23,892 nucleotides of DNA, taken from positions 1 to 23,892 of IMG/VR virus record IMGVR_UViG_3300025133_000595. One strand, written 5' to 3'. Positions 773 through 17,268 of this stretch are shown here, piece after piece. Under the pieces are notes generated by a model. The model made no database searches. It saw only the letters and a list, made by a program, of their open reading frames with translations, and had not been told where the DNA came from. A program made the position numbers and the translations under genes. This DNA is from a virus. The first letter of the stretch is position 1. Each line of letters begins with the position of its first letter.

Positions 773-1633
773 TCAAGAGTGTTGGGCAAAATCCTGAATT
801 TTATCTGTGTATCCAGCGCACAATACCATTATATTTTCAAATGTAGTTTCGTACACGGAGAAGCTCGCAGAAGCAGTCTCGGTTTTATAACGCTTTACGT
901 GGGATTTGATCTTCTGCATAAGGGAGCCATCCGATTCCATCATCGATGCGGGGATACCATAGAAGAAATGATAGGAGTTGGGCTCGGACAAGGGAAAGAA
1001 GAGTCTTACATCGCCCTGATCCTCCTCAAGCGAAGAGAGTCCAAAAGAACTCATGCGAGACCATGGAGTAGTATCCAAGGAGGTTGAAAGAACGGGGTCC
1101 GTGTGATTATAATAATTCACCATAGCGAACCCATACGCGATAAGGTGGGCTACACTTTTTTCGTACTCCTGTATCGGTACATCACCCACATACGACTCAA
1201 CAGTTGGTCGGTCTACGAGTAATAATTGTTCCAGAATCCCACTTCTGGCATACTCCTGCAACACCTTGAAGGCTATCTTGTCATCTCGTCGTTCGATGTG
1301 TGACATCATGGTACGATCCGGGCAGACATACAGTACATTTAATTTAGCGTGGCTGATAGTTTCTAAAAGACGTAACAACACACCGTTAATAGCCTCTCCG
1401 CCGCCGGTGGCCACCAGAACGTGGTCCCCATCTTTGATGGACCGCAGGTAGATATAAGCCTCTTCTGCGTCAAAATTCTTTTCATATTCTTCCATGTTGT
1501 CACAGGGATCAAGAGCGAGAGTGCCCCGCTCCTTGAGGTGTGTCCCTATCTTATAGATGCGATATTCTGGGTGCTCGGAAAGTTCCTCAGCAAGTCGTAC
1601 CCCCATCTCCCCGAGACCTATCACTTTATCCAT
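773..1633 (-). CDS. FtsZ/tubulin-like protein (putative, degenerate GTPase signature)
   Basis: This 286-aa protein follows the FtsZ/tubulin plan by eye. A first strand and loop VIGLGEMGVRLAEEL (4-18) stand where FtsZ has its glycine-rich T1 loop. HVLVATGGGEAINGVLLRLL (71-90) stands at the T4 signature loop GGGTGTG, with three glycines kept but the T-G-[ST]-G half lost. Then come LNVLYVC (98-104) and RRDDKIAFKVLQEYARSG (115-132), like strand S5 and helix H5 before the ribose-binding turn. Next are LLLVDRP, a long helix like H7, and LDTTPWSRMSSFGLSS, which aligns with the FtsZ T7-loop region (D..D..T.M...G). The strict NxDxxD is not present, so GTP hydrolysis may be changed or absent. The start ATG overlaps the polymerase stop by 8 nt, so the two are likely co-translated. 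A Rossmann-type NAD-binding protein is the main alternative. Confidence 0.55.
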   Translation of the reverse strand: MDKVIGLGEMGVRLAEELSEHPEYRIYKIGTHLKERGTLALDPCDNMEEYEKNFDAEEAYIYLRSIKDGDHVLVATGGGEAINGVLLRLLETISHAKLNVLYVCPDRTMMSHIERRDDKIAFKVLQEYARSGILEQLLLVDRPTVESYVGDVPIQEYEKSVAHLIAYGFAMVNYYNHTDPVLSTSLDTTPWSRMSSFGLSSLEEDQGDVRLFFPLSEPNSYHFFYGIPASMMESDGSLMQKIKSHVKRYKTETASASFSVYETTFENIMVLCAGYTDKIQDFAQHS

Positions 1634-4333: not shown

Positions 4334-6895
4334 CTACCCCATTGTCCTCTTTTCAAAGACGCACTCAATTTGAGTAGTGTAACCTTTGGCACTAATATTG
4401 TGTTGAGATTTAACCACGCGATAATATCCCCCCAAAGCCAATACTTCATTACCCATAGCCCCAAGTGCCATGCGACTATCTACATAGATCAAATCACCAT
4501 TCCTATGGATACTGTTGCCAACCATGTCGATGGTGATATTCTGCGGCAAAAATAGAGCACGTGCGGCGGCGGAGGATTGCATACCTGAAGTAGAAGAATA
4601 GTGAGCGGACTCAATATTAAGGGCTTTGAAGTGGGCTTGATCCATTTTCCGGAAATTAAACTTTTTGGCTATCCCACACTCGGCTCCAATAATATAATGA
4701 AAGACGCCATCATCTTCATCCTGCTTTCTATTCCCTTTGCGCGTGGCGTGGTTGACCTGCCGTGCAAATACCACATAATAGTTGTAAATAGGGGCAGCCA
4801 CGTTATCAGTGAGTTGCCTGTTTTTTAAGGCAGTCGGAAAAGACTTGATCATTTCTTCCGTTAAAATATGAATATTCTGATGATCATCAAGCTCCTGCAC
4901 GTCCCAAAAACTACTATAGAGACTCATATCAAAGATAAGGCGCAGGCGATATTCGCTCACCTCGTTCATCAGGCGACCCACCATGCTCATGAGATCATCT
5001 ATGAACCGCTTAAAGGGATAAGTTTTAGCCCCAGTAGCTACTACATTATCATAAAAAAATTGACTTACATATTCTATCGAGATTGGGAGGTTATATAAGG
5101 CCTCGAAGCGGTCGGCAGAAGCACTGCCATACCCTGGAATGCCCAAGTCATATGGAGAGAAACTCCCCAGAATGAGATTCACGTCATGACGCAATTGTGC
5201 TTTCTTCATAGCGGTAGAAATTAAATCTCCCAGGCGCACAAAATAAATGCGGCGCGTTGCATCAGTGGGGGCGTCAGCCCCTTTGGAGATAGTATCAGCC
5301 TGTTCAGGGCTGGACGAGCTATCGACAGTATCATAGGACTTAACCAAGTCTTTGAGTCGGTCTTTCAACTCGGCGCGGCTGTGGGCAAGGGCACTACTCA
5401 CCTCGACAGTTTCGCTTGCCCCAAAAGACTTCGCTGGGTCGGCTTTCACCGTCCCTACAAATACCTTGTGACGATCGATCATCGAGCCCAAAAAACCTTC
5501 TAACCTTTCGGCCATCTGAGCTTTCTGCACTTTGTCGTAGGCGCTTTCAAGGGGGCCCATCCATCTCAATATGTCCTCGTGATTATTGTCGGGATCGGGT
5601 GCGCCTTTATACTTTAACCGTAATAGACTTAACTTGTCCATTAAAATGTCTGTCTCCTCAATAAGCTTGGCGGCGCGAACGGTCGCCAGGGTTTGACCAT
5701 CAGGTCCTTTAACGAGAGGGGTGCCAGACTTCCCTTTGCCTTTGCTTACAATAGATGCGAGGTAGCCGTCAGCCCACACATCCTCAAGATTAATATCATC
5801 TACCGGGATGGAGGTACCCTTGCTTATTAAATCATCTTTTGTATTATGAGACCCGAAGACATCGGAGGTAGGGCTTGTAATATAATTATCGGTACTCCCC
5901 ACATACTGAATACTTAAAGTAGTGGGACCCTCTTGTTGGAAATTAACATTATAATCCACCAGATTTAGCATAATAACCCGCTGCATAACCTGAACCGATT
6001 CCAGAAACCTATTTAGTTTTTGGCGTTTAGTAGCCTGATCTTTCCCGCGGAACAGTTTTATTAATTGTCGCTGACTTCCTTTTGGGACAGCCCACCCCAC
6101 GGTGACTCGGAGTTGGCGAAAGTCATTCTTTAACCCCGCGTTAAAATCGGTACTGGTGGAGACGGCTTTACTGTCGGTGATCGTCTTCATGGCCTCGGCA
6201 ATTTTTGACTCTAAGGCTTTAATACGAGACGCTTCAGTATCGGCTGCCTTACGCGACTCGGCGTCTAAGGGCTTTGCATGAGGAGTCCGCAACCCATTAG
6301 TAAAAAGAAATTTTAAATAGTTGATATTGAGAAGTTCCACCAATGACCCAAAATATAATTCTAAGTTAGCCCCAATGATACGGTCACCTTCGTGCTTATT
6401 ATCATAGTTCCAACTAAAACTCTTGATGCCTACGTTAGATCCGCCAGGGCGGCGGGGTCCAAAAACCTCGTCTAAGGTGCCGGCGTTTCGCCGGGTTTGG
6501 GCCAGGCTGCGTGCAAGGGCGGCGGAGGTGTGATCCCCAAAATAAACTTCTTCTTCGTTGCCTTGGTTATCGCGGATATAGAACCGCATATGAGGTTCTA
6601 AGACCGAGAGCACATTAGGACAAGCATGGACAAACTCGCCGGCGATCGGTGGATTGACCAAAGTAGAGACGAGGACATCGGGGTCCTCGGTATAAGGATA
6701 AAGTCCGTTTATGAGTGTATCCGCACGTGAATCATCAAACCCCTGAAGGGAGGTGGTCAAGCCATCGTCGCGGGCGTAGTGTGCGGCATCCAACACCACA
6801 CTGGTATGACTCACAATCTTGTACAAGTTCTTCAACAATAACAGTTGGCTGGGCTTGGGAGATCTTGACTGCGCTTTACCTGTGGGTCGAGCCAT
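4334..6895 (-). CDS. Large baseplate protein, probable hub component (853 aa)
   Basis: Its position between the gp53-like gene and another structural gene, and its size, point to the baseplate. About residues 155-190 contain KSFSWNYDNKHEGDRIIGAN followed by a strand-rich run (LELYFGSL), a layout I associate with hub-type proteins (T4 gp27, phage P2 gpD). The last 65 residues hold IHRNGDLIYVDS, a glycine/alanine-rich turn, then LGGYYRVVKSQHNISAKGYT and TTQIECVFEKR. This strand pattern (short beta barrel ending G-G-Y-Y-x-V, then S.G..T.L) is typical of the C-terminal part of hub proteins. The middle (about 215-245 and 475-560) is helical and charged. It begins directly at the stop codon of the previous gene (TAGATG). 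T4 gp27 has 391 aa, so this is over twice as long, and fusion of hub and another module is likely. The exact role is inferred. Confidence 0.62.
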   Translation of the reverse strand: MARPTGKAQSRSPKPSQLLLLKNLYKIVSHTSVVLDAAHYARDDGLTTSLQGFDDSRADTLINGLYPYTEDPDVLVSTLVNPPIAGEFVHACPNVLSVLEPHMRFYIRDNQGNEEEVYFGDHTSAALARSLAQTRRNAGTLDEVFGPRRPGGSNVGIKSFSWNYDNKHEGDRIIGANLELYFGSLVELLNINYLKFLFTNGLRTPHAKPLDAESRKAADTEASRIKALESKIAEAMKTITDSKAVSTSTDFNAGLKNDFRQLRVTVGWAVPKGSQRQLIKLFRGKDQATKRQKLNRFLESVQVMQRVIMLNLVDYNVNFQQEGPTTLSIQYVGSTDNYITSPTSDVFGSHNTKDDLISKGTSIPVDDINLEDVWADGYLASIVSKGKGKSGTPLVKGPDGQTLATVRAAKLIEETDILMDKLSLLRLKYKGAPDPDNNHEDILRWMGPLESAYDKVQKAQMAERLEGFLGSMIDRHKVFVGTVKADPAKSFGASETVEVSSALAHSRAELKDRLKDLVKSYDTVDSSSSPEQADTISKGADAPTDATRRIYFVRLGDLISTAMKKAQLRHDVNLILGSFSPYDLGIPGYGSASADRFEALYNLPISIEYVSQFFYDNVVATGAKTYPFKRFIDDLMSMVGRLMNEVSEYRLRLIFDMSLYSSFWDVQELDDHQNIHILTEEMIKSFPTALKNRQLTDNVAAPIYNYYVVFARQVNHATRKGNRKQDEDDGVFHYIIGAECGIAKKFNFRKMDQAHFKALNIESAHYSSTSGMQSSAAARALFLPQNITIDMVGNSIHRNGDLIYVDSRMALGAMGNEVLALGGYYRVVKSQHNISAKGYTTQIECVFEKRTMG

Positions 6896-7285: not shown

Positions 7286-8557
7286 TCAGGGACGGGGTAT
7301 CCAGCCGCCACGGTTATACAAGGGTCCTTGCGTTTTGACCCAGGCGTTGTATTGTGACCGGGTGCGTGTGGTGATGGCGACGTAAGCTGCTGTTTTGTCG
7401 ATGTCGCCGTAATCGATGTAAGATGTTCCTCGCCTCAAATTAACTATCTGGTCAAATTCGTAAAGCTGCCATTTTTCGCGGGGGGTGATCTGCCCGGCTC
7501 GGAGCCCTGCGTTTATGGTGTCTATGGAGAGCTTCTCTTCACCAACGTCAATCTGCCATAACCAGGACTGAAACTGGCTCTCTTCCACTGCGCTGCCCGC
7601 TTCGGGCAGATCCGCGGGTACGGCACTCGCCGCGTTCACCGGCACTGTGGCCCCCTCGCTGCGCACGGCAGTAGCAAATTGATCAGTCACGTAAGGAAAA
7701 TTACCAAAGTTTAACTTAGGGTCATTAAACCTATAGGTTATTTGAGTCCTGGACATGCCATCCTCTATACTCTTTACCTTGACTGGCTTTCTTTTACCGG
7801 TGCTCGCTTCAAAACCCAAACTGTGTTCATGGGTCACCACAAACTCAAAGTTTAACCGAATTGCTTTGGGGTAATATTCGGCTTTTCCTTCGGGAGTCAT
7901 GCCGTAAAAAAATCCATTCTCCACCATAGGGTCCATAGTTATGCCGTTAACAAAGCCGAGAAGTGCACCACCTGTTTGAGAGTTTTGTATTAAATTTCCA
8001 AATTTTACCTTCCACATGGGGTCCTGATTGATAACCCCGATTGCATCCTGGGGATTAGCCGGCTTATCCCGCGATGACTGGGCATATAGAGGGTACAAAA
8101 AACTAATCAGCTTATTAATCTTAAATAAATTACGCATGGCGTGCTCATAAGACTCAGCCGGAACTTCCCAAGCAAGTGATATAGCTCTCTTCGTGTGCAT
8201 AAAGGTTGCCATAGGATCCATCCGCCCGTACACCTTTTCGGAATTCCACGATGAATTATAGGCATCTCCGAAAGCTGTTATGAAAGCAGGGAAGGTAACG
8301 GTAAAGCCTGTGGGCACATGTTCAATATACAAACGCTGCTGTCCCACAGTCTCCAAGTTGCGAGCCCCGGCAACTCGGGTCTGAATGGGACGGCCGTTTA
8401 TGTCTTCGTGATCCTCCCGAGCGGCGGCGGCGGTGCGGGCGTTGCGGGTGATATCTCGTCCAGCCTGAAGGGTTTGACGGTAGTCTGAGTCCCCGGCGAT
8501 GTTAGTAGCTATAGCTTTCGCTTTTCTTTGTGCTCGTAAATTGATTTTCTTGGTCAT
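7286..8557 (-). CDS. Tail-tube initiator/baseplate-cap-like protein, paralogue B (423 aa)
   Basis: Residues 80-158 form a conserved block: HVPTGFTVTFPAFITAF, YGRMDPMATF, RAISLAWEVPAESY and INKLISFLYPLY. These are followed by VKFGNLI, GALLGFVNGITMDP and FVVTHEHSLGF. The upstream gene has the same blocks in the same order, so the two are paralogues. Alternating hydrophobic residues suggest a beta-rich tube-like fold. Tape measure, then two related proteins, then gp53-like, is the place where T4 has gp48 and gp54, which cap the hub and start the tail tube. I infer that role from order and fold pattern, not from direct similarity to gp48 or gp54. The C-terminus (about 340-423) is unique to this copy and basic. 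The ATG overlaps the stop of paralogue A by 4 nt (ATGA), so translation is coupled. Confidence 0.65.
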   Translation of the reverse strand: MTKKINLRAQRKAKAIATNIAGDSDYRQTLQAGRDITRNARTAAAAREDHEDINGRPIQTRVAGARNLETVGQQRLYIEHVPTGFTVTFPAFITAFGDAYNSSWNSEKVYGRMDPMATFMHTKRAISLAWEVPAESYEHAMRNLFKINKLISFLYPLYAQSSRDKPANPQDAIGVINQDPMWKVKFGNLIQNSQTGGALLGFVNGITMDPMVENGFFYGMTPEGKAEYYPKAIRLNFEFVVTHEHSLGFEASTGKRKPVKVKSIEDGMSRTQITYRFNDPKLNFGNFPYVTDQFATAVRSEGATVPVNAASAVPADLPEAGSAVEESQFQSWLWQIDVGEEKLSIDTINAGLRAGQITPREKWQLYEFDQIVNLRRGTSYIDYGDIDKTAAYVAITTRTRSQYNAWVKTQGPLYNRGGWIPRP

Positions 8558-9876
8558 AATCCTGAATAATCCATCTTATTCCAACCAGTCGCTGAATTGG
8601 GGTCCCTAAACAACTCCCCTTTCTCGATCCTTGGATGTCGATACAATAACTCAGCCTCCTCCCTCGTAATCTTGTTGAAGTAGAGAGCGTTGCGGACATT
8701 TAAAGTTCCAAGTCTTTCTCGCTCCATCATTTCTCCAAAGACGCTGCTGTCGTCCGGATCGGGCGCGTCGGGCTCGACTGAATTAATAATATTCTGGCGT
8801 GATGTAGAGCGAGAAGAGGTCCCGGCATCTACCCGAGTATGGTACGGAAAGTTGTTCCATTTCACCTCGGTGTCATTAAAAGAATAAGAGGTGGTTATGG
8901 TTTGTCGGTTACGACGGCGGGTTACCCCTTCAGCCCAATCATATTTTTCATCAATCTTATCCCTGGTTGAGTCACTAACCCGATAGCCCAATTTGTGATC
9001 ATGGAGCACCTTGAGTTCAAGATTCAAGCGAAATGTTTTTGCGAAATATCGAGGTCCCGTGGACGTCACTTCGTTGAACATACCATATTCCATAGCCGGA
9101 TCATAAGTGACGCCGCGGCAGTACCCTAAAAGTCCATCCCCAGAGACCGCACTTATTACAAGGTTCCCAAAACTAATCCGGACCAGGGGACTTTGATTAA
9201 TACCGGTGGCGGCGTTTGTTCGGTCGCCCTCATATAGGGGATATAGATAGCTGATGAGTTGGTTGACTGCGCCCAGATTAAATTCTGCATCAATATAAGA
9301 CTCCGCCGGCACGTTCCACCCCAAGGAAAGAGTTCGTTCCGTACCATTAAATGTAGCAATAGGATCCATGCGACCGAAGACACTCTCCTGGGTCCAGTCA
9401 GCATTATAAGCATCGTTGAAGGTATCCAAAAATGCGGGAAACCCTACCTGAAATCCTGTGGCAATATGGGTAATAGTCAACGTTTGCTTAAGTTGGCGAG
9501 CAAGGTTCGTAACACCCGGAAGATCTCCATGCCCGGCCCGAGTCGTCGCGAGGTAATCCCCCGTCTCATCCATTGATGTCTTAAATGGTATTCCACTACT
9601 TTGTTCGTTAAGTCTGGTCTTGTAGCGATCATTAGCTACTTTTTCGGATTCGGCGCGCAAATAATCAGAGAAAGAAGGAGCTTTCGGAGGGGCAGGAAGT
9701 GTCCCCCCTAAGTCAGTTGAGGCGCGAGCGTTGACCTCGCTGAGGGTTTTGTCGTTCGTGAGCCATGCCCTTGAACTCTGTGCCCTCGCACTGTTAGCCT
9801 CTTGGCTTATGGAGCTTCTATAATGTTGAGCAACCGCAGTTGTGCCAGGTACCAAAGGTGGAAATTTCTTAGCCAT
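8554..9876 (-). CDS. Tail-tube initiator/baseplate-cap-like protein, paralogue A (440 aa)
   Basis: It shares more than half of about 80 residues with the next gene over the core block (residues 137-215), by eye: HIATGFQVGFPAFLDTF, FGRMDPIATF, TLSLGWNVPAESY and VNQLISYLYPLY. Later blocks ISFGNLVI, GLLGYCRGVTYDP and VLHDHKLGY match too. The first 130 residues are a polar, helix-prone arm rich in Ala, Ser and Arg and differ from the other copy. The C-terminal 70 residues (EPDAPDPDDSSVFGEMMERE and beyond) keep a weak match to the other copy around INAGLRAGQITPREKWQLYE versus LNVRNALYFNKITREEAELL. The duplication is therefore probably full length with arm replacement. It starts 3 nt after the tape measure stop. 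It is likely a ring component at the baseplate end of the tube, though a general structural role cannot be excluded. Confidence 0.65.
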   Translation of the reverse strand: MAKKFPPLVPGTTAVAQHYRSSISQEANSARAQSSRAWLTNDKTLSEVNARASTDLGGTLPAPPKAPSFSDYLRAESEKVANDRYKTRLNEQSSGIPFKTSMDETGDYLATTRAGHGDLPGVTNLARQLKQTLTITHIATGFQVGFPAFLDTFNDAYNADWTQESVFGRMDPIATFNGTERTLSLGWNVPAESYIDAEFNLGAVNQLISYLYPLYEGDRTNAATGINQSPLVRISFGNLVISAVSGDGLLGYCRGVTYDPAMEYGMFNEVTSTGPRYFAKTFRLNLELKVLHDHKLGYRVSDSTRDKIDEKYDWAEGVTRRRNRQTITTSYSFNDTEVKWNNFPYHTRVDAGTSSRSTSRQNIINSVEPDAPDPDDSSVFGEMMERERLGTLNVRNALYFNKITREEAELLYRHPRIEKGELFRDPNSATGWNKMDYSGL

Positions 9877-9879
9877 TTC

Positions 9880-12096
9880 TTACCCCCTCACGTACATAGG
9901 ATTAAGGACGACATCGACTGCTTTCTCAATGAAGTCAAGTTGAGTGCCTCCCAATTCTAAAGTAATTGGGAGGGTAAGTTCTTTGACGGTGATAGGACCG
10001 GATTGATTCGATCCTCCCGAACTTTCTCTTCCTCTGCCTGCCCGATTTTCTCCAAAGGTTCCTAATTGCAGTAGTCTTCCCTGGGCATCGGTTATGCGGA
10101 GGTCGTCGGCGCGACCCTTCACTCCGGCTGCATGTATGATGGGTCCGGGCGCAAGCGTCGCGTCGTTGACGGCTCCTGTAAGTTCGGGGACCGATCGTCC
10201 AACACTATAGCCAAACATAGCAGCAGGAATTGCTCCCACGCCCCCGGCTCCCGCACCTATTGCTCCGGCGGTGGCGGCACCGGTCAAGCCACCAGCCAGC
10301 CGTGCACGGGCCAGCTTCTTATCTTCTTCTCCGGTTATACCCAAAGATTGAGCAGCATCTTTAATCAGCAACACGCCGCTGGCGATGCCGCCTATTATCT
10401 TCCCGAAGAAAGCAGCGCCTTTTGATATGGCTGAAAGTTTAGATCCGAGTGCGGACATCCCGCTGATTAGAGGGCTGAACAACACTTTGAGCCCCTTGAT
10501 CGCCCAGCCGATGCTTTTGAGTGCTCCTCCGAGGACCAGCAATTTGCTGGTCAACAGTATGACGCTGGCGATGCCTTTCCCCCAGGAACTGGAGAAAAAA
10601 TCATCCGCGGCTTCAGCCATCTGACCAAGCCAGTCCACTAGTTTGATCGCGGCCGGCGCGAAAGCCATATAGAATTTTTCGTAAGCTATTTGCATTTTTT
10701 CTGTTGCCGTCTTGAATCCAGCCTGACGTTTCTCGTTTATTAGTGTTTCCTTTTGGATTCTGCGCAATTCCATGGGATCGCCAAACATGCGGGTGGCAGT
10801 CTCGGGATCAACCTTTAAGATATCGGCAACCATCTGAAGCTGTCGTTTGCCCATATTCTTCACGACGACGCCCGTACGATCAAACTCGCCGCGCAGAGCC
10901 TTAAACCGGTCGGCATGATCCATATGCATCATATTAACCGACTCAAACTGAGTTCCAAACTGGGCGTTTAACTTACCGGCAGCCTCTGCTGCACTTTCAA
11001 AGGTATCAAAAAGCTCTGCCACATCGAAAATCTGTTTCGATTCCATGCCAAGTTTACGAGCTTCTTCTTGCAGTCTGGTGAATACCTTAATACCTTGCGC
11101 TCCAAAACGTGCCATCTGAGGGTTAAGGTCATTAAAGTCTTTCAGGACTGCGCCGAGGGGACGTCCGGTTCTCATAGCAATCTTTTCAAAAGATGCTGCG
11201 GCTTTGAGTCCGGCTGTCCCAGTGATTCCCAGTCCACGGTTGATCTTATCTAATGTTTTCCCGAAGAGTGCGCCTTCTACACCCTGCACTTTAAACTTGC
11301 GTGCGAGGTCGAAAGTCTCAAAGCGAGCAGTCTTCGACAAGGCATTATAATCCTTGTATTCGTTGCTCAACTCTCCAAGAAGTTGACCCTGTTCCTTGTA
11401 CATGAGCCCCGTGCGGGAGGAACTCTTATAAAAGGTAGCTAAGTCCTTCTGTAAATGGCGAGTGTAGCCTGTTTGGGTTGCCAATGACTTGTTCACTTGG
11501 TCCAGTCCGTGGGCTCGGCGAATCGACTCTTTGGCGATCTCCTTCATACTCTTCAGGTGGCTCATGTTGACGCCGGTGAGGGTTGAGAACAGATCGACGG
11601 TTGCTCCCCACCCTTTTTTGATATCGTGAGCGGCTTTGACGTTATCTTGGGATACGGTGACTAGTTCGCGTTGGTGAGCTATATGGTCTACTAATGTTTT
11701 ATCGGCTTCTTTAAGCGCGGCATGGGCAGCGAGGAGGCTTGCCTTCTCTTTGTCCGATAATTCAATACCCTTAGCTTTTGCCTCGTTCTGGCGGGCTAAG
11801 AGTTCGAGGTACACATTTACTGATTTGATCTCTTGAGCGTTAAGCTGAAGATCGGTCTCTTTCGCCTCCAGGGCTTTCTTATCTTGTATGAGTTTCTTCT
11901 CGCCCCACTTATACTCTTTTTCCTGTAGCTCTAAAAGTCTTTCTTGAGCCTGGATGTGTTTAAGCAGCCGACCGGCTTTCTCTTGGTCGGTCTCGTTGCG
12001 ATTGACCGGTCGTCGAGGATTATTATTGTTGCCGTTGTTATTACCGTTGTTATTACCGTTGTTGTTGCCGTTGTTACCGTTGTTGCCGTTAGTCAT
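9880..12096 (-). CDS. Tail tape measure protein (gp29-like)
   Basis: This protein sets tail length and travels down the tube at ejection. The 738 aa start with an asparagine/glycine tract (3-26), then a charged coiled-coil region (about 35-160). A long helical middle follows, and then a hydrophobic glycine-rich segment of the type IASVILLTSKLLVLGGALKS and GAAFFGKIIGGIASGVLLI (about 505-580). A second such stretch, GGLTGAATAGAIGAGAGGVG, lies near 605-625. The C-terminus ends in a strand pair ITVKELTLPITLELGGTQLD and an amphipathic helix. Coils, membrane-active stretches and a beta tail together are typical of tape measure proteins, as is the place after the assembly chaperones. With the usual 0.15 nm per residue the tail would be about 110 nm, near T4. 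The start is the ATG at 12096; AGGA lies 12 nt upstream. Confidence 0.9.
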   Translation of the reverse strand: MTNGNNGNNGNNNGNNNGNNNGNNNNPRRPVNRNETDQEKAGRLLKHIQAQERLLELQEKEYKWGEKKLIQDKKALEAKETDLQLNAQEIKSVNVYLELLARQNEAKAKGIELSDKEKASLLAAHAALKEADKTLVDHIAHQRELVTVSQDNVKAAHDIKKGWGATVDLFSTLTGVNMSHLKSMKEIAKESIRRAHGLDQVNKSLATQTGYTRHLQKDLATFYKSSSRTGLMYKEQGQLLGELSNEYKDYNALSKTARFETFDLARKFKVQGVEGALFGKTLDKINRGLGITGTAGLKAAASFEKIAMRTGRPLGAVLKDFNDLNPQMARFGAQGIKVFTRLQEEARKLGMESKQIFDVAELFDTFESAAEAAGKLNAQFGTQFESVNMMHMDHADRFKALRGEFDRTGVVVKNMGKRQLQMVADILKVDPETATRMFGDPMELRRIQKETLINEKRQAGFKTATEKMQIAYEKFYMAFAPAAIKLVDWLGQMAEAADDFFSSSWGKGIASVILLTSKLLVLGGALKSIGWAIKGLKVLFSPLISGMSALGSKLSAISKGAAFFGKIIGGIASGVLLIKDAAQSLGITGEEDKKLARARLAGGLTGAATAGAIGAGAGGVGAIPAAMFGYSVGRSVPELTGAVNDATLAPGPIIHAAGVKGRADDLRITDAQGRLLQLGTFGENRAGRGRESSGGSNQSGPITVKELTLPITLELGGTQLDFIEKAVDVVLNPMYVRG
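12019..12090 (-). repeat. GNN/GNNN codon repeat at the start of the tape measure gene
   Basis: The first codons after ATG ACT are an imperfect AAC/AAT/GGC/GGT repeat coding for about 24 Asn and Gly residues. The unit changes from GNN to GNNN along the run. Such a tract is disordered and can change length by replication slippage. In this place it may serve as a flexible leader for chaperone binding or for processing of the tape measure protein. Confidence 0.85.
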
Positions 12097-12108: not shown

Positions 12109-12438
12109 CTAATTGCGGATAGGCCAGTTAATGCCTGACTCGCGTTCAAAACGCTTAATGGCTACGTCCAGGCGCGCTTTTTGCTGGTAGGTCATGGGGT
12201 CGTCGAGCCCGTATTTACGGATAAAGTCCATATAACGCTTTTCGTTCACTAAAGCATCAGTAAAACGTTCTACCTCAATACGGTTGCCGCGGACCCGAAC
12301 AGGGATTCGACGACCCTTGAACATCTTGGATAAAAGATACTCAATCCATGCAGCCAAGACATGGAGAATGTTCTCGTTTAAGGGCTGATTCTTGAAATCA
12401 TTTAGATCAAACACATCATTTTCAAAATCCGGCTTCAT
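12109..12438 (-). CDS. Small conserved tail-cluster protein, 109 aa, function unknown
   Basis: No named family. The protein is soluble, alpha-helical by composition and charged. ILHVLAAWIEYLLSKMF (25-41) is an amphipathic helix. It is followed by RRIPVRVRGNRIEVERFTDA and KRYMDFIRKYGLDDPMTYQQ, and the end is a basic helix closing with GINWPIRN. I recall similar short proteins, with IPVKVRG and a terminal W-P, beside tail genes of aquatic T4-like phages. The ATG at 12438 has AGGAGG 6-7 nt upstream, the strongest ribosome binding site of the tail region, and a copy of the recurrent promoter motif 23 nt upstream. It ends 12 nt before the tape measure gene. A chaperone or hub-assembly role (position of T4 gp27/gp28) is possible but unproven. 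Confidence 0.8.
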   Translation of the reverse strand: MKPDFENDVFDLNDFKNQPLNENILHVLAAWIEYLLSKMFKGRRIPVRVRGNRIEVERFTDALVNEKRYMDFIRKYGLDDPMTYQQKARLDVAIKRFERESGINWPIRN

Positions 12439-12483: not shown

Positions 12484-12759
12484 TTAAGTATATTGACGAC
12501 CGCGGCCGCCACGCGTGGTTTGCTGGGCAGCTTTCATTTGTTCTACTTCATGGGTTTTTTGTTCATGGAGCTTTTCAAGGAACCATAAACGCATCCGAAT
12601 AGGGAGGTTATAGGATTCGAAAAAACTCCACCCCCCAAAATATTTTAAGTCAAAAAGTTGGTTATAGACTGTTTGAAGGTACTCATCATTCAGGCCAAAA
12701 AAAGTCCACGCCGAGCGGAACCTCCATGTCCGCTTCATGTCCGCAGTTGGTGCAAACAT
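12484..12759 (-). CDS. gp51-position tail/baseplate assembly protein, probably made by frameshift from the gp26-like gene
   Basis: The open frame holds 91 codons from ATG at 12759 (a second ATG is at 12738). It lies +1 relative to the gp26-like gene and overlaps its last 74 nt. Neither ATG has a ribosome binding site. The part that looks like real protein begins at FFGLNDEYLQTVYNQLFDL and continues with GGWSFFESYNLPIRMRLWFL and a charged helix. The residues before it (TADMKRTWRFRSAWT) are just the shifted reading of the zinc-site codons. The conserved-looking part thus begins at the T7 run. I infer that the product is mainly the C-terminal 70 residues joined to the gp26-like protein. In T4, genes 26 and 51 are neighbours and both act in building the baseplate hub. 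A separate small protein from an internal start remains possible. Confidence 0.65.
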   Translation of the reverse strand: MFAPTADMKRTWRFRSAWTFFGLNDEYLQTVYNQLFDLKYFGGWSFFESYNLPIRMRLWFLEKLHEQKTHEVEQMKAAQQTTRGGRGRQYT

Positions 12760-13579
12760 AATTCTGAGTCATGTCAATGTTAGGAACAAAGGACACGTAC
12801 GTTCTCCGGAGGTACCGGGCATCTCGCGCCGGCATATTCTGGATAAGTGTTTCTTTCATGATTGGGGATGGATCTCCGTTAACACTAACAATGTAGGCAC
12901 GGAAAATATCGGTGGTGGTGGTGTCGTCCTGCTTGCGCTTGCTTTTGCGCTCCGCTTGTTTCGCCAAAGCAAGTTCATCGCTACCAAAAAGAAGCCGGCA
13001 TTCTACGGTGACTTCCGTCATAGGCAGTGTTATGACGAAGGTCTGATCGTCGGTTAAGGTAACCCCGTTATCGCTTTCGATAGCTTCTCGGAAGTTATTA
13101 ATAGGAGGATCTTCGAGATCAAAGCTGAACTCGTCTGTAACATTACAAGAGGGACACTCGACCTTTGTATCATACATCGCCCCGTAGCCCGTACGTCGAG
13201 CCGCCACCAGTAGGGCATTCTTATCGCCTACCAAAAGATCCCCTACCTGAATAGACGAATCAATGAACAAGTTTTGGAGCATCCGATCCAACGCCAGTCC
13301 TTCCTTAAGAAGAGAGCGGGAAGTAAGAATGTCTTCTTCTTTTGCCGTCATATACCGTATTTCTATCATGTCTACGTTATGCAACGGATGTCCGGCGGGG
13401 TAAAACATCCCGCCGCTGGGCAATTTCACAAATTCAGTTGGTGTGGCCCAATTAAAGGCTGGGGTGTTTGCCGCGGCTTGAGGAGTGCCCGGAGGGTTAG
13501 TTACAATTGGAGCAGGGCTTTCCTCTTGGTGCTCGAAAGCATCTTCGGGAAGCCCTGTCCGGTTTTGATTACGACTCAT
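12686..13579 (-). CDS. Baseplate hub assembly protein, gp26-like, four-cysteine zinc site
   Basis: The 297-aa protein has a disordered Pro/Ala-rich leader (1-45). A conserved start block follows: TEFVKLPSGGMFYPAGHPL, then IEIRYMTAKEEDILTSRSLL (about 48-91). Two CxxC pairs, CPSC (142-145) and CTNC (276-279), lie in strand pairs and probably bind one zinc ion. This F-V-x-L-P-S-x-G..Y and M-T-x-x-E-E-D-x-L pattern with two CxxC motifs is what I know from the gp26-type hub proteins of T4-like phages. T4 gp26 has 208 aa, so this version is longer, partly because of the leader. It is the first gene after the tail tube, as expected for a tail-assembly chaperone. Its last codons hold the frameshift site. 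The start ATG at 13579 has AAAGG upstream, below a strong stem-loop. Confidence 0.75.
   Translation of the reverse strand: MSRNQNRTGLPEDAFEHQEESPAPIVTNPPGTPQAAANTPAFNWATPTEFVKLPSGGMFYPAGHPLHNVDMIEIRYMTAKEEDILTSRSLLKEGLALDRMLQNLFIDSSIQVGDLLVGDKNALLVAARRTGYGAMYDTKVECPSCNVTDEFSFDLEDPPINNFREAIESDNGVTLTDDQTFVITLPMTEVTVECRLLFGSDELALAKQAERKSKRKQDDTTTTDIFRAYIVSVNGDPSPIMKETLIQNMPARDARYLRRTYVSFVPNIDMTQNYVCTNCGHEADMEVPLGVDFFWPE
12697..12703 (-). other. Candidate programmed ribosomal frameshift site (T7 run, +1 or -2)
   Basis: The minus strand reads GTG GAC TTT TTT TGG CCT GAA TGA in the gp26-like frame. Skipping one T (+1) or slipping back two (-2) gives TTT TTT GGC CTG AAT GAT, which enters the downstream frame. 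The fused protein would have 364 or 365 residues. The site is three sense codons before the zero-frame stop, a typical place. A -2 shift is known for phage Mu tail chaperone genes and -1 for lambda G/GT. Confidence 0.55.
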
Positions 13580-13654: not shown

Positions 13655-14221
13655 TCAGCCGCCGGCTGCGCCGGAGCCGCGTCCTGCACCCGAGATCTCC
13701 AGTTTTGCCCAATCGAACTGCATTTCAATAGTTACTTCATTCATTTCATCGGAGGTATAATCCAACGAGCCGCCGAAATCAACGCTCGTAATGAAAGGAT
13801 TTTGAAGAGCCCATCTTTCGATAATCTTGCCGTCCTCGTTGATCTGATCAATAAAGACTTGCCCGATTTGCTCCGTAAACTTACGCTTACTTAAACTGGC
13901 TTTTGATTGAGCAGCAGTTGTAGGGAACTTATATCCACTTGCGCCGAGAACATCCAAGAAGGCAAAAGACAAATCAGGATGCACAGGATCAACCAAAGTG
14001 ATAGTAATCGGATCCCAAGTAACACGTCCCGGATACTTGAAGGTGTGATCAATATACTGGTGCTCAATCAGGGAGACATTGGCTTTAGGCTTAGTTGCCG
14101 TCTTCACGGTCCAAACCGGGATTGCTCCTTGTCCGCCGGATGAACGGCTGCTAAACTTAAGTTCAAATCGAAACCGGCGTTTTGGCTCTGTCCGCACGTC
14201 ATTCCAAAATAGTTCTGCCAT
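13655..14221 (-). CDS. Tail tube protein (gp19-like)
   Basis: It forms the inner tube of the contractile tail. The 188 aa compare well with T4 gp19 (163 aa). The pattern is that of tube proteins: RRFRFELKFS near the start, PVWTVKTATKPKANVSLIEH (about 35-54), FKYPGRVTWDPITITLVDPV (61-80), then a helix and a closing strand pair NPFITSVDFGGSLDYTSDEM and VTIEMQFDWAKLE. In gp19-like proteins the segment Y-P-G-x-x-x-[WF]-x-P-I-[TS]-[IV]-T-[LF]-x-D is the clearest signature. A short Gly/Ala tail (GAGRGSGAAGG) follows and is probably disordered. It lies directly downstream of the tail sheath, as in T4. The start codon ATG at 14221 has GGGAG 12 nt upstream, rather far. Confidence 0.9.
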   Translation of the reverse strand: MAELFWNDVRTEPKRRFRFELKFSSRSSGGQGAIPVWTVKTATKPKANVSLIEHQYIDHTFKYPGRVTWDPITITLVDPVHPDLSFAFLDVLGASGYKFPTTAAQSKASLSKRKFTEQIGQVFIDQINEDGKIIERWALQNPFITSVDFGGSLDYTSDEMNEVTIEMQFDWAKLEISGAGRGSGAAGG

Positions 14222-14262: not shown

Positions 14263-17200
14263 TTAATCCTCGAAAGCGGCTCCGCTATTTGTAACTACAA
14301 AGTCGATGGCGAAGAACTCAACAGCACGTGTCGGCTTAACAAGCAACTTAGCGTAGATTATGTTCCGGTCAATCAAGTCCGGAGTGGTGGTGGCATCATC
14401 CAACACAAGTCGGAAGTCTTCGATGCCGTATTCAGCTTTGACACTCTCCAGCAATGGAGATGCCTGCCCTAAGAACCTGTCCCAAGTGTCTTGAGTGTTA
14501 GGACTAAAGAGCAGTCGCGAAGCGATGAATGAGATCTCGCGCTTGAGATAAATCATCAGGCGTCGGACATTGATACGGTCCAGAGCAGTTGCAGTTTGTT
14601 GCAAGGTTTTCTGTCCGAAGATTACAATACCTTCGGCCGGGAACTTGGCGATGGGATTAATATTTGTTTCATACAACGAATCTCTCTGGTCTGACGACAA
14701 GCGTTGAGAGACATCCAGCACCGGCAAGCCGGCAGCGCCTTCACTCAAGCCACCGCGGGTGAACCCAGCAGGCGCAAACCAAGGAGCTTGAAGCCTATCC
14801 GTACTGGAAAGGACTCCCAAAGCTGCAACGCTCGGAGGTGCCCAGAGGCTCTGGTTAGTATTCGTATCCAAGATACGCACCCATGGATAATACGTTGCGC
14901 CATAACTGTTGTTAATGGAGCGTTGTTGCATTGTGTTCACAGCCGCGGCTGGAGTGTTTGCTTCATTAGCAGCATATTGCCCCAGGTTGGTTTCCGTATC
15001 AGGTGTGTACGCATCTTCGATATCCACGATTCCCAAGACATCGGCACGCTCTTCGGCTATTTCCAGCAGATAGTCAGTGACCGTAGCCTTGGTAACGCCC
15101 GGAATAGTGAGAGCATTGCCCTGCACATAGTCCGGATCGGAAACAATGTTAAGCGCCTTACGCAAGGAGAATAGCTCATAAGAAGCTTTTTCATCCGTTG
15201 TCGAAATGGCACTGTTGCGGAAGGGTTCGCGTTCGGTAATATTATATCCGCTCGTCCCACCATGCAAGAGCACGTTAAAGCGATCAACACCTGCCGCCAG
15301 TACCGTCTTGTAGGACGATCCCGAAGGAGCCGACAAACTGGTTCCCGACCGTCGTTGTCCGGCAGCAAAGGTATAACCGTCCGCGGCAGAGCCGGAGACG
15401 TCATCGAGTGAGAAGACCCACGAGGTAACAATGGCGCTGCTGCCCATGCTGGCGCTCGTCTGTCCTTGGATATCATAAGTAGTAGCGGCTGGATTGGCAC
15501 TTTCTCCGCTGCTTTGCACATCGAATGATCGGGCGCGCAGAAGATCCGGCAACTGGCTGCTATAAAAAGTCTCATTAGCTGCGCGACCGGTCCATGCACC
15601 CCAGTAGCAATTGCGCAGGGAACGCGGCGTACCCCATGTACTAAGCTGCCGCAGAGGAACTGTGGGGAAAGTAATAGAGCCGCTAAATCCGGTGGCGTCG
15701 TCTGTTTCTAAGATGTCGGACGAGGCAAAGGAATGACCCGCCAGACCAAATGTGACTGACGATCCGCCTGCAAGCATGGTGTTGACTGCGGCAAGAACAC
15801 CGGAGACTGGAGTGGAGACTGACTCCGACCAGCCCGATGATCCAGAGACCACACCGACATCACGGTATTTAGGAGGACCCCACATACCGAAAGGCAACCA
15901 GCGCGGCTCGCCTGAGCCGGCTTCCACATCCTCGTCCATCACTACGCGGACATAGTTGGACTGATTAGCGTATTGACCGTATTCTACGTTGCGAAGATTG
16001 GTCTTATCATAGCGTTGATAGCGATCGCCGATTTGCTTCGCAATATAATCAGCAGACGCGGGGTTAAGATTAAGGTTATCAAAACGCTCGATGACCTGTG
16101 GGGATGTATCGCTATCGCCCAATCGTCTTACAAGAATAGAGAAGGAGCCATAAGATTGGTAGTCTCCTTCTGGTGCTTTAATGTTCGAGACAGATATCTT
16201 AACCTGACGTTGTACACTTTCGCCGGCGGTCAAAGCCTCCAGGCGGAAAAGTTTCTGCATCTCACTGGCGTAATATGAAGTGTTATTATTGCTCAGATCT
16301 TGCGAGATAAACCAGCCGGTGCTGCCGCGAATAGCTGCACCTTCAAAGTCATTTTGTTGAGAGGTGAAACTTCCGGTGGGAACTGCCATGGGGAACAAGG
16401 CAGCGTGAAGCTTTCCAGAAGTAATATCGGCGGACAAAACCCCAATAGAGTTTGTCCCTTGTGCGCTCAGAGATCTCTCGAAGGACTCTCCGAGAAAATA
16501 CTTTCCACCCTGGTAATAGTCCTGCGTTGCCGCTGTAGTAATAGCAGCATTTGTAATCGTCGGATTCGTGTTGAGAACCTTCCGGATAAAGTTTTCGCTC
16601 TCTGGGTTTAGACTGACGGTGGCTTTCTTAGAAAGATTACTTCCCGTAAAATGGAGAGTAAAGCTATCAATGTTCGGAACTTCTATAAGTGTAGATCCGT
16701 TTTCTCCCGTAGCTGCAACCGCTCCGCCAACCGCCAAGGTTCCCGACAGAAGGGCGCGACCTTGATCCACATAAATTTGAGCCGCCACAGCGCCGCCCAC
16801 GAGGGTCGGTGCCTTAGTGCTAATACTGCCTGAGGGCCAAACGACGAGGGCATAAACCCCACCCGAGTCAGCGCCTTCATCAGTGGCTCCTGCTGTGCCC
16901 ACTTTCCAGCCGGCTTTGCCAGCGGTTGTTGCTTGATCAGATTCGTCGCCGAGAACTCGCATGAAGGTAACGGGTCCGTTATTGGTCAACCACGCCTTAG
17001 CCGCAAAAGGGGCATAAGTGGGGGCGCTGTCATCGCCGATGCGCCAGACATCCCCAGACTTGCCGCCGGGAACAGGGTTCCCAAACGTTTGCACAAAGTC
17101 GGAAAACGAACTCACTGTGACAGGGATATTCGCCGGTCCTTTAGCAGCCCGTCCAATAACAATCGGTCCAACGGCGGTAGGGAGATCAGGCAACTGAGAG

Positions 17201-17268
17201 TTGTCAATCTCCTCCACAAACACACCGGGGGAAATAAACTTAAATCTTCTTGAAGAGTTATCAGCCAT
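14263..17268 (-). CDS. Tail sheath protein (gp18-like), enlarged
   Basis: It forms the contractile outer sheath. The N-terminus FKFISPGVFVEEIDNSQLPD and VGPIVIGRAAKGPANIPVTV (about 9-52) is the classic sheath start: F-x-S-P-G-V-x-x-x-E-x-D and G-x-x-x-x-G-P-x-x-x-P-V. The C-terminal 150 residues carry the conserved sheath core: INPIAKFPAEGIVIFGQKTL, then LDRINVRRLMIYLKREIS, and the ending strand VEFFAIDFVVTNSGAAFED. At 1001 aa it is about half again as long as T4 gp18 (659 aa). The extra length is in the middle (roughly 120-600), rich in Ser, Gly and Thr, which suggests additional surface domains. The start ATG at 17268 has AGAGGAG 10-11 nt upstream, and the promoter motif lies 63 nt upstream. 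The next gene downstream is the tube. Confidence 0.93.
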   Translation of the reverse strand: MADNSSRRFKFISPGVFVEEIDNSQLPDLPTAVGPIVIGRAAKGPANIPVTVSSFSDFVQTFGNPVPGGKSGDVWRIGDDSAPTYAPFAAKAWLTNNGPVTFMRVLGDESDQATTAGKAGWKVGTAGATDEGADSGGVYALVVWPSGSISTKAPTLVGGAVAAQIYVDQGRALLSGTLAVGGAVAATGENGSTLIEVPNIDSFTLHFTGSNLSKKATVSLNPESENFIRKVLNTNPTITNAAITTAATQDYYQGGKYFLGESFERSLSAQGTNSIGVLSADITSGKLHAALFPMAVPTGSFTSQQNDFEGAAIRGSTGWFISQDLSNNNTSYYASEMQKLFRLEALTAGESVQRQVKISVSNIKAPEGDYQSYGSFSILVRRLGDSDTSPQVIERFDNLNLNPASADYIAKQIGDRYQRYDKTNLRNVEYGQYANQSNYVRVVMDEDVEAGSGEPRWLPFGMWGPPKYRDVGVVSGSSGWSESVSTPVSGVLAAVNTMLAGGSSVTFGLAGHSFASSDILETDDATGFSGSITFPTVPLRQLSTWGTPRSLRNCYWGAWTGRAANETFYSSQLPDLLRARSFDVQSSGESANPAATTYDIQGQTSASMGSSAIVTSWVFSLDDVSGSAADGYTFAAGQRRSGTSLSAPSGSSYKTVLAAGVDRFNVLLHGGTSGYNITEREPFRNSAISTTDEKASYELFSLRKALNIVSDPDYVQGNALTIPGVTKATVTDYLLEIAEERADVLGIVDIEDAYTPDTETNLGQYAANEANTPAAAVNTMQQRSINNSYGATYYPWVRILDTNTNQSLWAPPSVAALGVLSSTDRLQAPWFAPAGFTRGGLSEGAAGLPVLDVSQRLSSDQRDSLYETNINPIAKFPAEGIVIFGQKTLQQTATALDRINVRRLMIYLKREISFIASRLLFSPNTQDTWDRFLGQASPLLESVKAEYGIEDFRLVLDDATTTPDLIDRNIIYAKLLVKPTRAVEFFAIDFVVTNSGAAFED

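Follow-up and report, generated by a model that had tools for sequence, protein, structure and literature searches.

A conserved slip site in a T4-type tail-assembly chaperone gene that probably directs a +1 ribosomal frameshift

The stretch of viral DNA analyzed here (the window; IMG/VR virus record IMGVR_UViG_3300025133_000595, 23,892 nucleotides) carries a gp26-like gene that ends in a run of seven Ts (T7) and a second frame that is open across that end. Sequence comparisons indicate that this is quite probably a T4-type tail-assembly chaperone locus in which a +1 slip at UUU_UUU_UGG yields a long form of the protein. The slip site and the relation between the two frames are conserved among relatives, coding selection switches from one frame to the other at the junction, several relatives have no separate start for the downstream frame, and the products are homologous to T4 gp26 and gp51. 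The chaperone role is assigned because of homology and gene order. The features of the locus and its neighbors are the following.

12686-13579, minus strand: gp26-like gene encoding the short chaperone (G-like, TAC-N), 297 aa with two Cys pairs, in PF12322 and PHROG 150
12697-12703, minus strand: T7 slip site, read TTT TTT T(GG), leading into the +1 frame; TTTYTTTGG in every related junction
12692-12696, minus strand: GGCCT after the T run, nearly invariant, with the 0-frame TGG directly after the last TTT
12686-12688, minus strand: TGA, the 0-frame stop of the short product, its position conserved in relatives
12484-12702, minus strand: +1-frame extension (T domain), FFGLNDEYLQ...RQYT, 72 aa and a stop, probably joined to the short product by frameshifting
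12720-12725, minus strand: GGAGGT, the start of GGAGGTNCCG, Shine-Dalgarno-like, a candidate stimulator 16 nt 5' of the T run
13655-14221, minus strand: tail tube protein gene (PHROG 4542, E=2.5e-23; PF06841, weak)
14263-17268, minus strand: tail sheath protein gene (PHROG 23, E=3.9e-63; PF17482)
12109-12438, minus strand: small ORF between the chaperone locus and the gene in tape-measure position, with no Pfam or PHROG family match
9880-12096, minus strand: 738-aa ORF in the tape-measure position, so placed by position only

The gp26-like protein matches PF12322, the T4 base plate protein family that includes gp26, over residues 50-295 with 56.4 bits against a curated cut-off of 24.5 (E=4.4e-15 in a profile search), and it matches PHROG 150 with E=1.3e-14. 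On the minus strand its frame ends GAC TTT TTT TGG CCT GAA TGA, in which 12703-12686 read TTT TTT TGG CCT GAA TGA. The downstream frame spans this end, staying open between 12768 and 12484. The only ATGs in the downstream frame 5' of the junction are at 12759 and 12738, and neither has a Shine-Dalgarno-like sequence in front of it. A fused product would have 292 + 72 = 364 aa if the shift is +1 and 365 aa if it is -2. An initial annotation of the window had described the gp26-like frame ending at T7 with the downstream frame open across it, downstream ATGs lacking ribosome binding sites, a fused product of 364-365 aa, and a protein-like part that begins at the T run. The sequence reads as claimed, the recomputed lengths are the same, and conservation sets in at the T run and not at an ATG.

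The gene order sheath, tube, chaperone and extension is also that of relatives whose next large gene is annotated as the tape measure. The 738-aa ORF in the window matches no family, and phmmer gave no match between it and the same-position genes of five named phages. Several other features of the window can be recorded here. The tail sheath is 1001 aa long, compared with a tail-sheath profile of 496 columns, and appears to have a large N-terminal addition because PHROG 23 matches residues 424-999 only. Just past the tape-measure position, the ORFs at 7286-8557 and 8554-9876 (minus strand) are tandem paralogues with 38% identity over 317 aa; neither has a Pfam match, and they are possibly duplicated baseplate or tail proteins. 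Farther along, a 286-aa protein without a Pfam match (773-1633, minus strand) adjoins a short family A DNA polymerase-like ORF (1626-2849; PF00476, E=3.9e-14).

Relatives were collected from IMG/VR by scans run from single sequences, the available alignment (A5) being too little conserved. With the 72-aa downstream peptide of the window, 127 relatives were recovered and 80 loci among them read, and the matching peptides of Flavobacterium phage immuto and Microcystis phage Mel-JY01 contributed 80 and 70 further loci; homologues of the extension are present in 127 + 577 + 70 IMG/VR stretches. A scan of IMG/VR with SP-15 gp26 gave no match other than SP-15 gp26 itself. Because the queries were degenerate back-translated peptides, the scans did not force TTT over TTC. 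Two named phages have the +1 frame open across the end of a gene annotated as baseplate hub: in Listeria phage LIS04 (L093 4735-4966) the extension is unannotated, and in SP-15 (L090) only its last part is annotated (4821-4940).

The downstream frame is +1 (equivalently -2) to the gp26-like frame in 183 of 183 junctions checked, and 84 window-clade loci as well as 99 further non-identical junctions keep this relation together with the slip motif. The junction reads either TTTTTTTGG or TTTCTTTGG, the latter replacing T7 in one large clade; the 99 further junctions include 67 with T7 and 32 with TTTCTTT. In L059, too, the run is interrupted (TTTCTTT) and the frame relation unchanged. At junctions, TTT[TC]TTTGG occurs 233 times in 235 related loci, compared with 30 occurrences elsewhere (902 kb, both strands), which rules out chance as the reason for its presence there. 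The 12 bases TTTTTTTGGCCT are nearly invariant among 51 junctions that are less than 90% identical, even at the wobble positions of the 0 frame; elsewhere in the same genes, Phe codons are TTT and TTC in a ratio of 339 to 168. The initial annotation had proposed a programmed shift at the T run and had named an alignment of the junction in relatives as the way to check it. That proposal is supported: the T run (in the form TTTYTTTGG) and the frame relation are kept in all relatives.

The same 51 junctions also carry the mark of a coding frame switch, with variability falling on the third positions of 0-frame codons 5' of the T run and on those of +1-frame codons 3' of it. The locus might nevertheless consist of two overlapping genes, the downstream protein being separately initiated at ATG 12759 or 12738. 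The window does have these two in-frame ATGs, and a small gene with its own ATG exists in some more distant relatives (Cygsa01, with TAATG, and S-SCSM1), but both ATGs of the window lack a Shine-Dalgarno sequence and protein-like conservation begins at the T run. Furthermore, 17 of 84 related loci have no ATG, GTG or TTG 5' of the junction in the downstream frame, and in L007, L017, L085 and L333 that whole frame is without any start codon. Stop codons in the downstream frame lie 3-9 nt ahead of the T run in several relatives, and in L017 and L078 one lies 3 nt ahead of the first Phe codon. Independent initiation is therefore excluded as a general explanation, the four loci without any start having refuted it for the clade, and for the window it is highly improbable. 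Still less credible is a sequencing or assembly error in the homopolymer that hides a single continuous frame. Homopolymers are indeed error-prone, but run length and frame are identical in more than 180 non-identical contigs and also in the complete isolate genomes of Mel-JY01, immuto and RM378, and relatives keep the position of the 0-frame stop as well as a W-P tail in the 0 frame. With so many independent contigs and isolate genomes, such an error is excluded.

The direction of the shift can be judged from peptidyl-tRNA re-pairing, which was tabulated for nine representative lineages. A good +1 slip (UUU to UUU or UUC) is possible in all nine, and a good -2 slip is possible on T7 and T6 sites. 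On T7, a -2 shift of the kind known in Mu (PMC5009743), in which tRNA-Phe on the second UUU moves back two bases and adds an extra Phe to give a long chaperone of 365 aa, would re-pair as well as a +1 slip. Against it stand three distant lineages, GXN1 (TTC TTT CGT), LuckySocke (CTG TTT CAG) and LR756508 (TTT CTA TTC), that share the frame relation and permit a good +1 slip but no good -2 slip. In the TTTCTTTGG clade, which reads UUU_CUU_UGG, a -2 shift would still be permitted but only through a slip of tRNA-Leu. A -2 shift is thus unlikely, and +1 would be much the likelier of the two directions. The initial annotation had left the direction at "+1 or -2"; the frame relation holds, and re-pairing favors +1. 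A third route to the long form is transcriptional slippage on T7, in which a minor fraction of the mRNAs would carry 6 or 9 Us and be translated normally. The near-invariant homopolymer at T7-clade junctions would suit this route, although seven bases make a short run for transcriptional slippage. The frame relation survives where the run is interrupted (TTTCTTT in 32 of the 99 further junctions and in L059), and this argues against slippage of this type, which is very improbable.

Sequence elements that might stimulate a +1 shift were sought around the slip site. The stretch GGAGGTNCCG, at -21 to -12, is conserved in the window clade with its wobble bases held: the Glu codon is GAG in 49 of 51 junctions, compared with 42% of Glu codons elsewhere, and the Pro codon is CCG in 44 of 51, compared with 11% of Pro codons elsewhere. 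This stretch, with its GGAGG element, is a candidate frameshift stimulator. The element is missing in many members of sister clades, and its distance from the slip site (16 nt) exceeds that of known Shine-Dalgarno-stimulated sites. No conserved downstream RNA structure was found in the window clade. A hairpin formed by GGAGGTNCCG and GGCCT across the slip site was also considered, and was dropped because it is impossible while a ribosome covers the slip site.

If the +1 reading is correct, most ribosomes would translate the gp26-like frame to the TGA and release the 297-aa short chaperone. A fraction of ribosomes would slip one base forward on UUU_UUU_UGG, probably while UGG waits in the A site, with tRNA-Phe re-pairing from UUU to UUU. 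Continued in the +1 frame, translation would then yield a long chaperone of 364 aa that ends in a helical T domain. If the lambda pair gpG/gpGT is taken as a model, the tape measure would be bound by the part common to both forms, and tube subunits would be recruited by the T domain.

In the AlphaFold model of the short form (pLDDT 88, pTM 0.80), the last helix begins at the Phe pair, and in the model of a T4-type gp51 (pLDDT 89, pTM 0.84), three further C-terminal helices follow the junction helix. Foldseek found no significant match in the PDB; the match of highest probability was the HK97 tail-assembly chaperone 2ob9 (0.51, TM (target) 0.52), with a non-significant E of 0.55. Matches among viral predicted structures were baseplate hub proteins of the same family.

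T4 gp51 matches PF12322 over residues 1-201 and then continues for about 45 residues more, and its C-terminal 100 residues match PHROG 634. In hhalign comparisons, gp26 and gp51 match at 99.4%, the cyanophage extension and the gp51 C terminus at 95.4% (E 1.9e-8), the cyanophage fused product and T4 gp51 over their full length at 97.7% (E 1.9e-12), and the window-clade and cyanophage fused products over both domains at 95.6% (E 1.3e-8). The window-clade fused product reaches 32% directly against gp51, and the controls gp25, gp27 and gp28 are below 1%. Taken alone, the window-clade T domain matches the cyanophage T domain weakly but in register (12%, E 0.002) and gives no hhalign match to T4 gp51, such that the link runs via full-length profiles. 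On this profile evidence, T4 gp26 and gp51 are paralogues, with gp51 carrying the extra domain as a permanent fusion. As gp51 is a complete gp26-like protein plus an extra domain, the predicted fused product, which likewise has a gp26-like part and a C-terminal helical domain in one protein, corresponds to gp51 and the short product to gp26.

T4 genes 26 and 51 are divergent and lie on opposite strands, and a shift from 26 to 51 is therefore impossible in T4, which by these comparisons gets its chaperone pair from two genes and not from a frameshift. The initial annotation had equated the downstream gene with gp51. This assignment of the downstream ORF alone was rejected, since gp51 is itself a complete gp26 paralogue with an extension and genes 26 and 51 are divergent. 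Its picture of a gp26/gp51 chaperone pair "still joined" in the window survives as to the pair, but not as to gp26 and gp51 being two joined pieces, and the connection that it drew from the T4 hub-assembly proteins to frameshifted chaperones in other phages is supported through profile homology to gp26 and gp51. In Enterobacter phage EC-F2 (L103 2501-3794), unlike in T4, gp51-like and gp26-like genes are adjacent on the same strand, an arrangement that fits an origin by tandem duplication.

Other T4-type relatives have a different site at the same place. An in-register T_TTT_TTC closes the gene in 80 of 80 relatives of a cyanophage gp26. A small ORF, annotated as 'baseplate hub assembly catalyst' in a named cyanophage, runs through it in the -1 frame. 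The heptamer is invariant among 58 sequences no more than 85% identical, including its TTC, a codon that accounts for 26% of Phe codons elsewhere. A Shine-Dalgarno-like GARGG is located 9 nt upstream. A five-pair hairpin with compensatory changes (e.g., GGTCC ATAT GGACC) lies 10 nt downstream (L116-L195), and its pairing exceeds all 2000 shuffles and also slid versions, which is support but not proof because shuffles do not keep relatedness. Most cyanophage-type loci have an ATG just past the 0-frame stop, where separate initiation of the small ORF is possible; four do not. A -1 relation at T_TTT_TTC is likewise seen in Desulfovibrio phage 7757, PA5oct and Vibrio phage 2.275. S-SCSM1 (L099 4187-4210) departs from the 80 relatives: about 11 additional bases follow its T_TTT_TTC and move the small ORF away from the -1 frame, either because the shift has truly been lost or because the sequence contains an error.

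A 2016 review described G-T frameshifting as conserved in long-tailed phages except T4, with -1, -2 and +1 shifts each used in different phages (PMC5009743). The T4-like chaperone genes gp26/gp51 were treated by Vladimirov, Gautam and Davidson (2022, Virology 566:9), as cited in PMC10885494 and PMC12846349; PRFect cites this work for T4-like phages in which the short form and a long fusion each have a gene of their own (PMC10885494). As far as these citations convey it, short and long T4-like chaperone genes, and -1 shifts in some T4-like phages, are thus prior knowledge. No report of a +1 shift in the T4-type chaperone family was found in the open-access literature, and the +1 variant looks new, as does a change of shift direction within one gene family at one codon pair. 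We lean toward the view that orthologous chaperones have repeatedly switched their route to the long form at one and the same Phe-Phe codon pair, by +1 at TTTYTTTGG (previously unknown for the T4 type), by -1 at T_TTT_TTC (cyanophage-type and some jumbo phages), by an apparently separate small gene, and by duplication and fusion in T4. Few cases of programmed recoding are as well conserved as the frameshifts of tail-assembly chaperones, and with +1, -1 and duplicated genes all present in the T4 chaperone family, it can therefore be asked how shift direction changes without loss of the product. For annotation, what is listed behind gp26 in many phages as a small hypothetical protein, or as 'baseplate hub assembly catalyst', probably represents the C terminus of a fused product.

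Among known systems, the window shares with lambda gpG/gpGT and P2 E/E+E' a place between the tube gene and the tape-measure gene (the latter assigned in the window by position only), a short and a predicted long product from one gene, a conserved slip site near the 3' end, and an overlapping downstream frame without its own start. The shift in those phages is -1, and the likeness drawn here is one of gene order and product pattern; the HK97 chaperone 2ob9 provides the only fold link to known chaperones, and it is weak. The Mu tail chaperone has the same frame relation (+1 or -2) and uses -2, whereas re-pairing across relatives of the window, poor for -2 in GXN1, LuckySocke and LR756508, favors +1. 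The +1 site of E. coli RF2 (prfB) is CUU_UGA, with CUU_U as the slip codon. It resembles the TTTCTTTGG clade, which reads CUU_UGG, in having YUU followed by UG, but in the window UGG replaces the stop codon, and GGAGG lies 16 nt before the T run where RF2 has a Shine-Dalgarno sequence about 3 nt upstream of the slip codon. The cyanophage-type sites occur in the orthologous gene, add a corresponding domain and use the same Phe-Phe codon pair at the junction, but have the -1 relation, the GARGG 9 nt upstream and the small covarying hairpin downstream. T4 gp26 and gp51 belong, like the window protein, to the PF12322 family, with the short form as gp26, the long form as gp51 and the same fusion point in the alignment; T4 has two divergent genes where the window appears to have one gene and a +1 shift.
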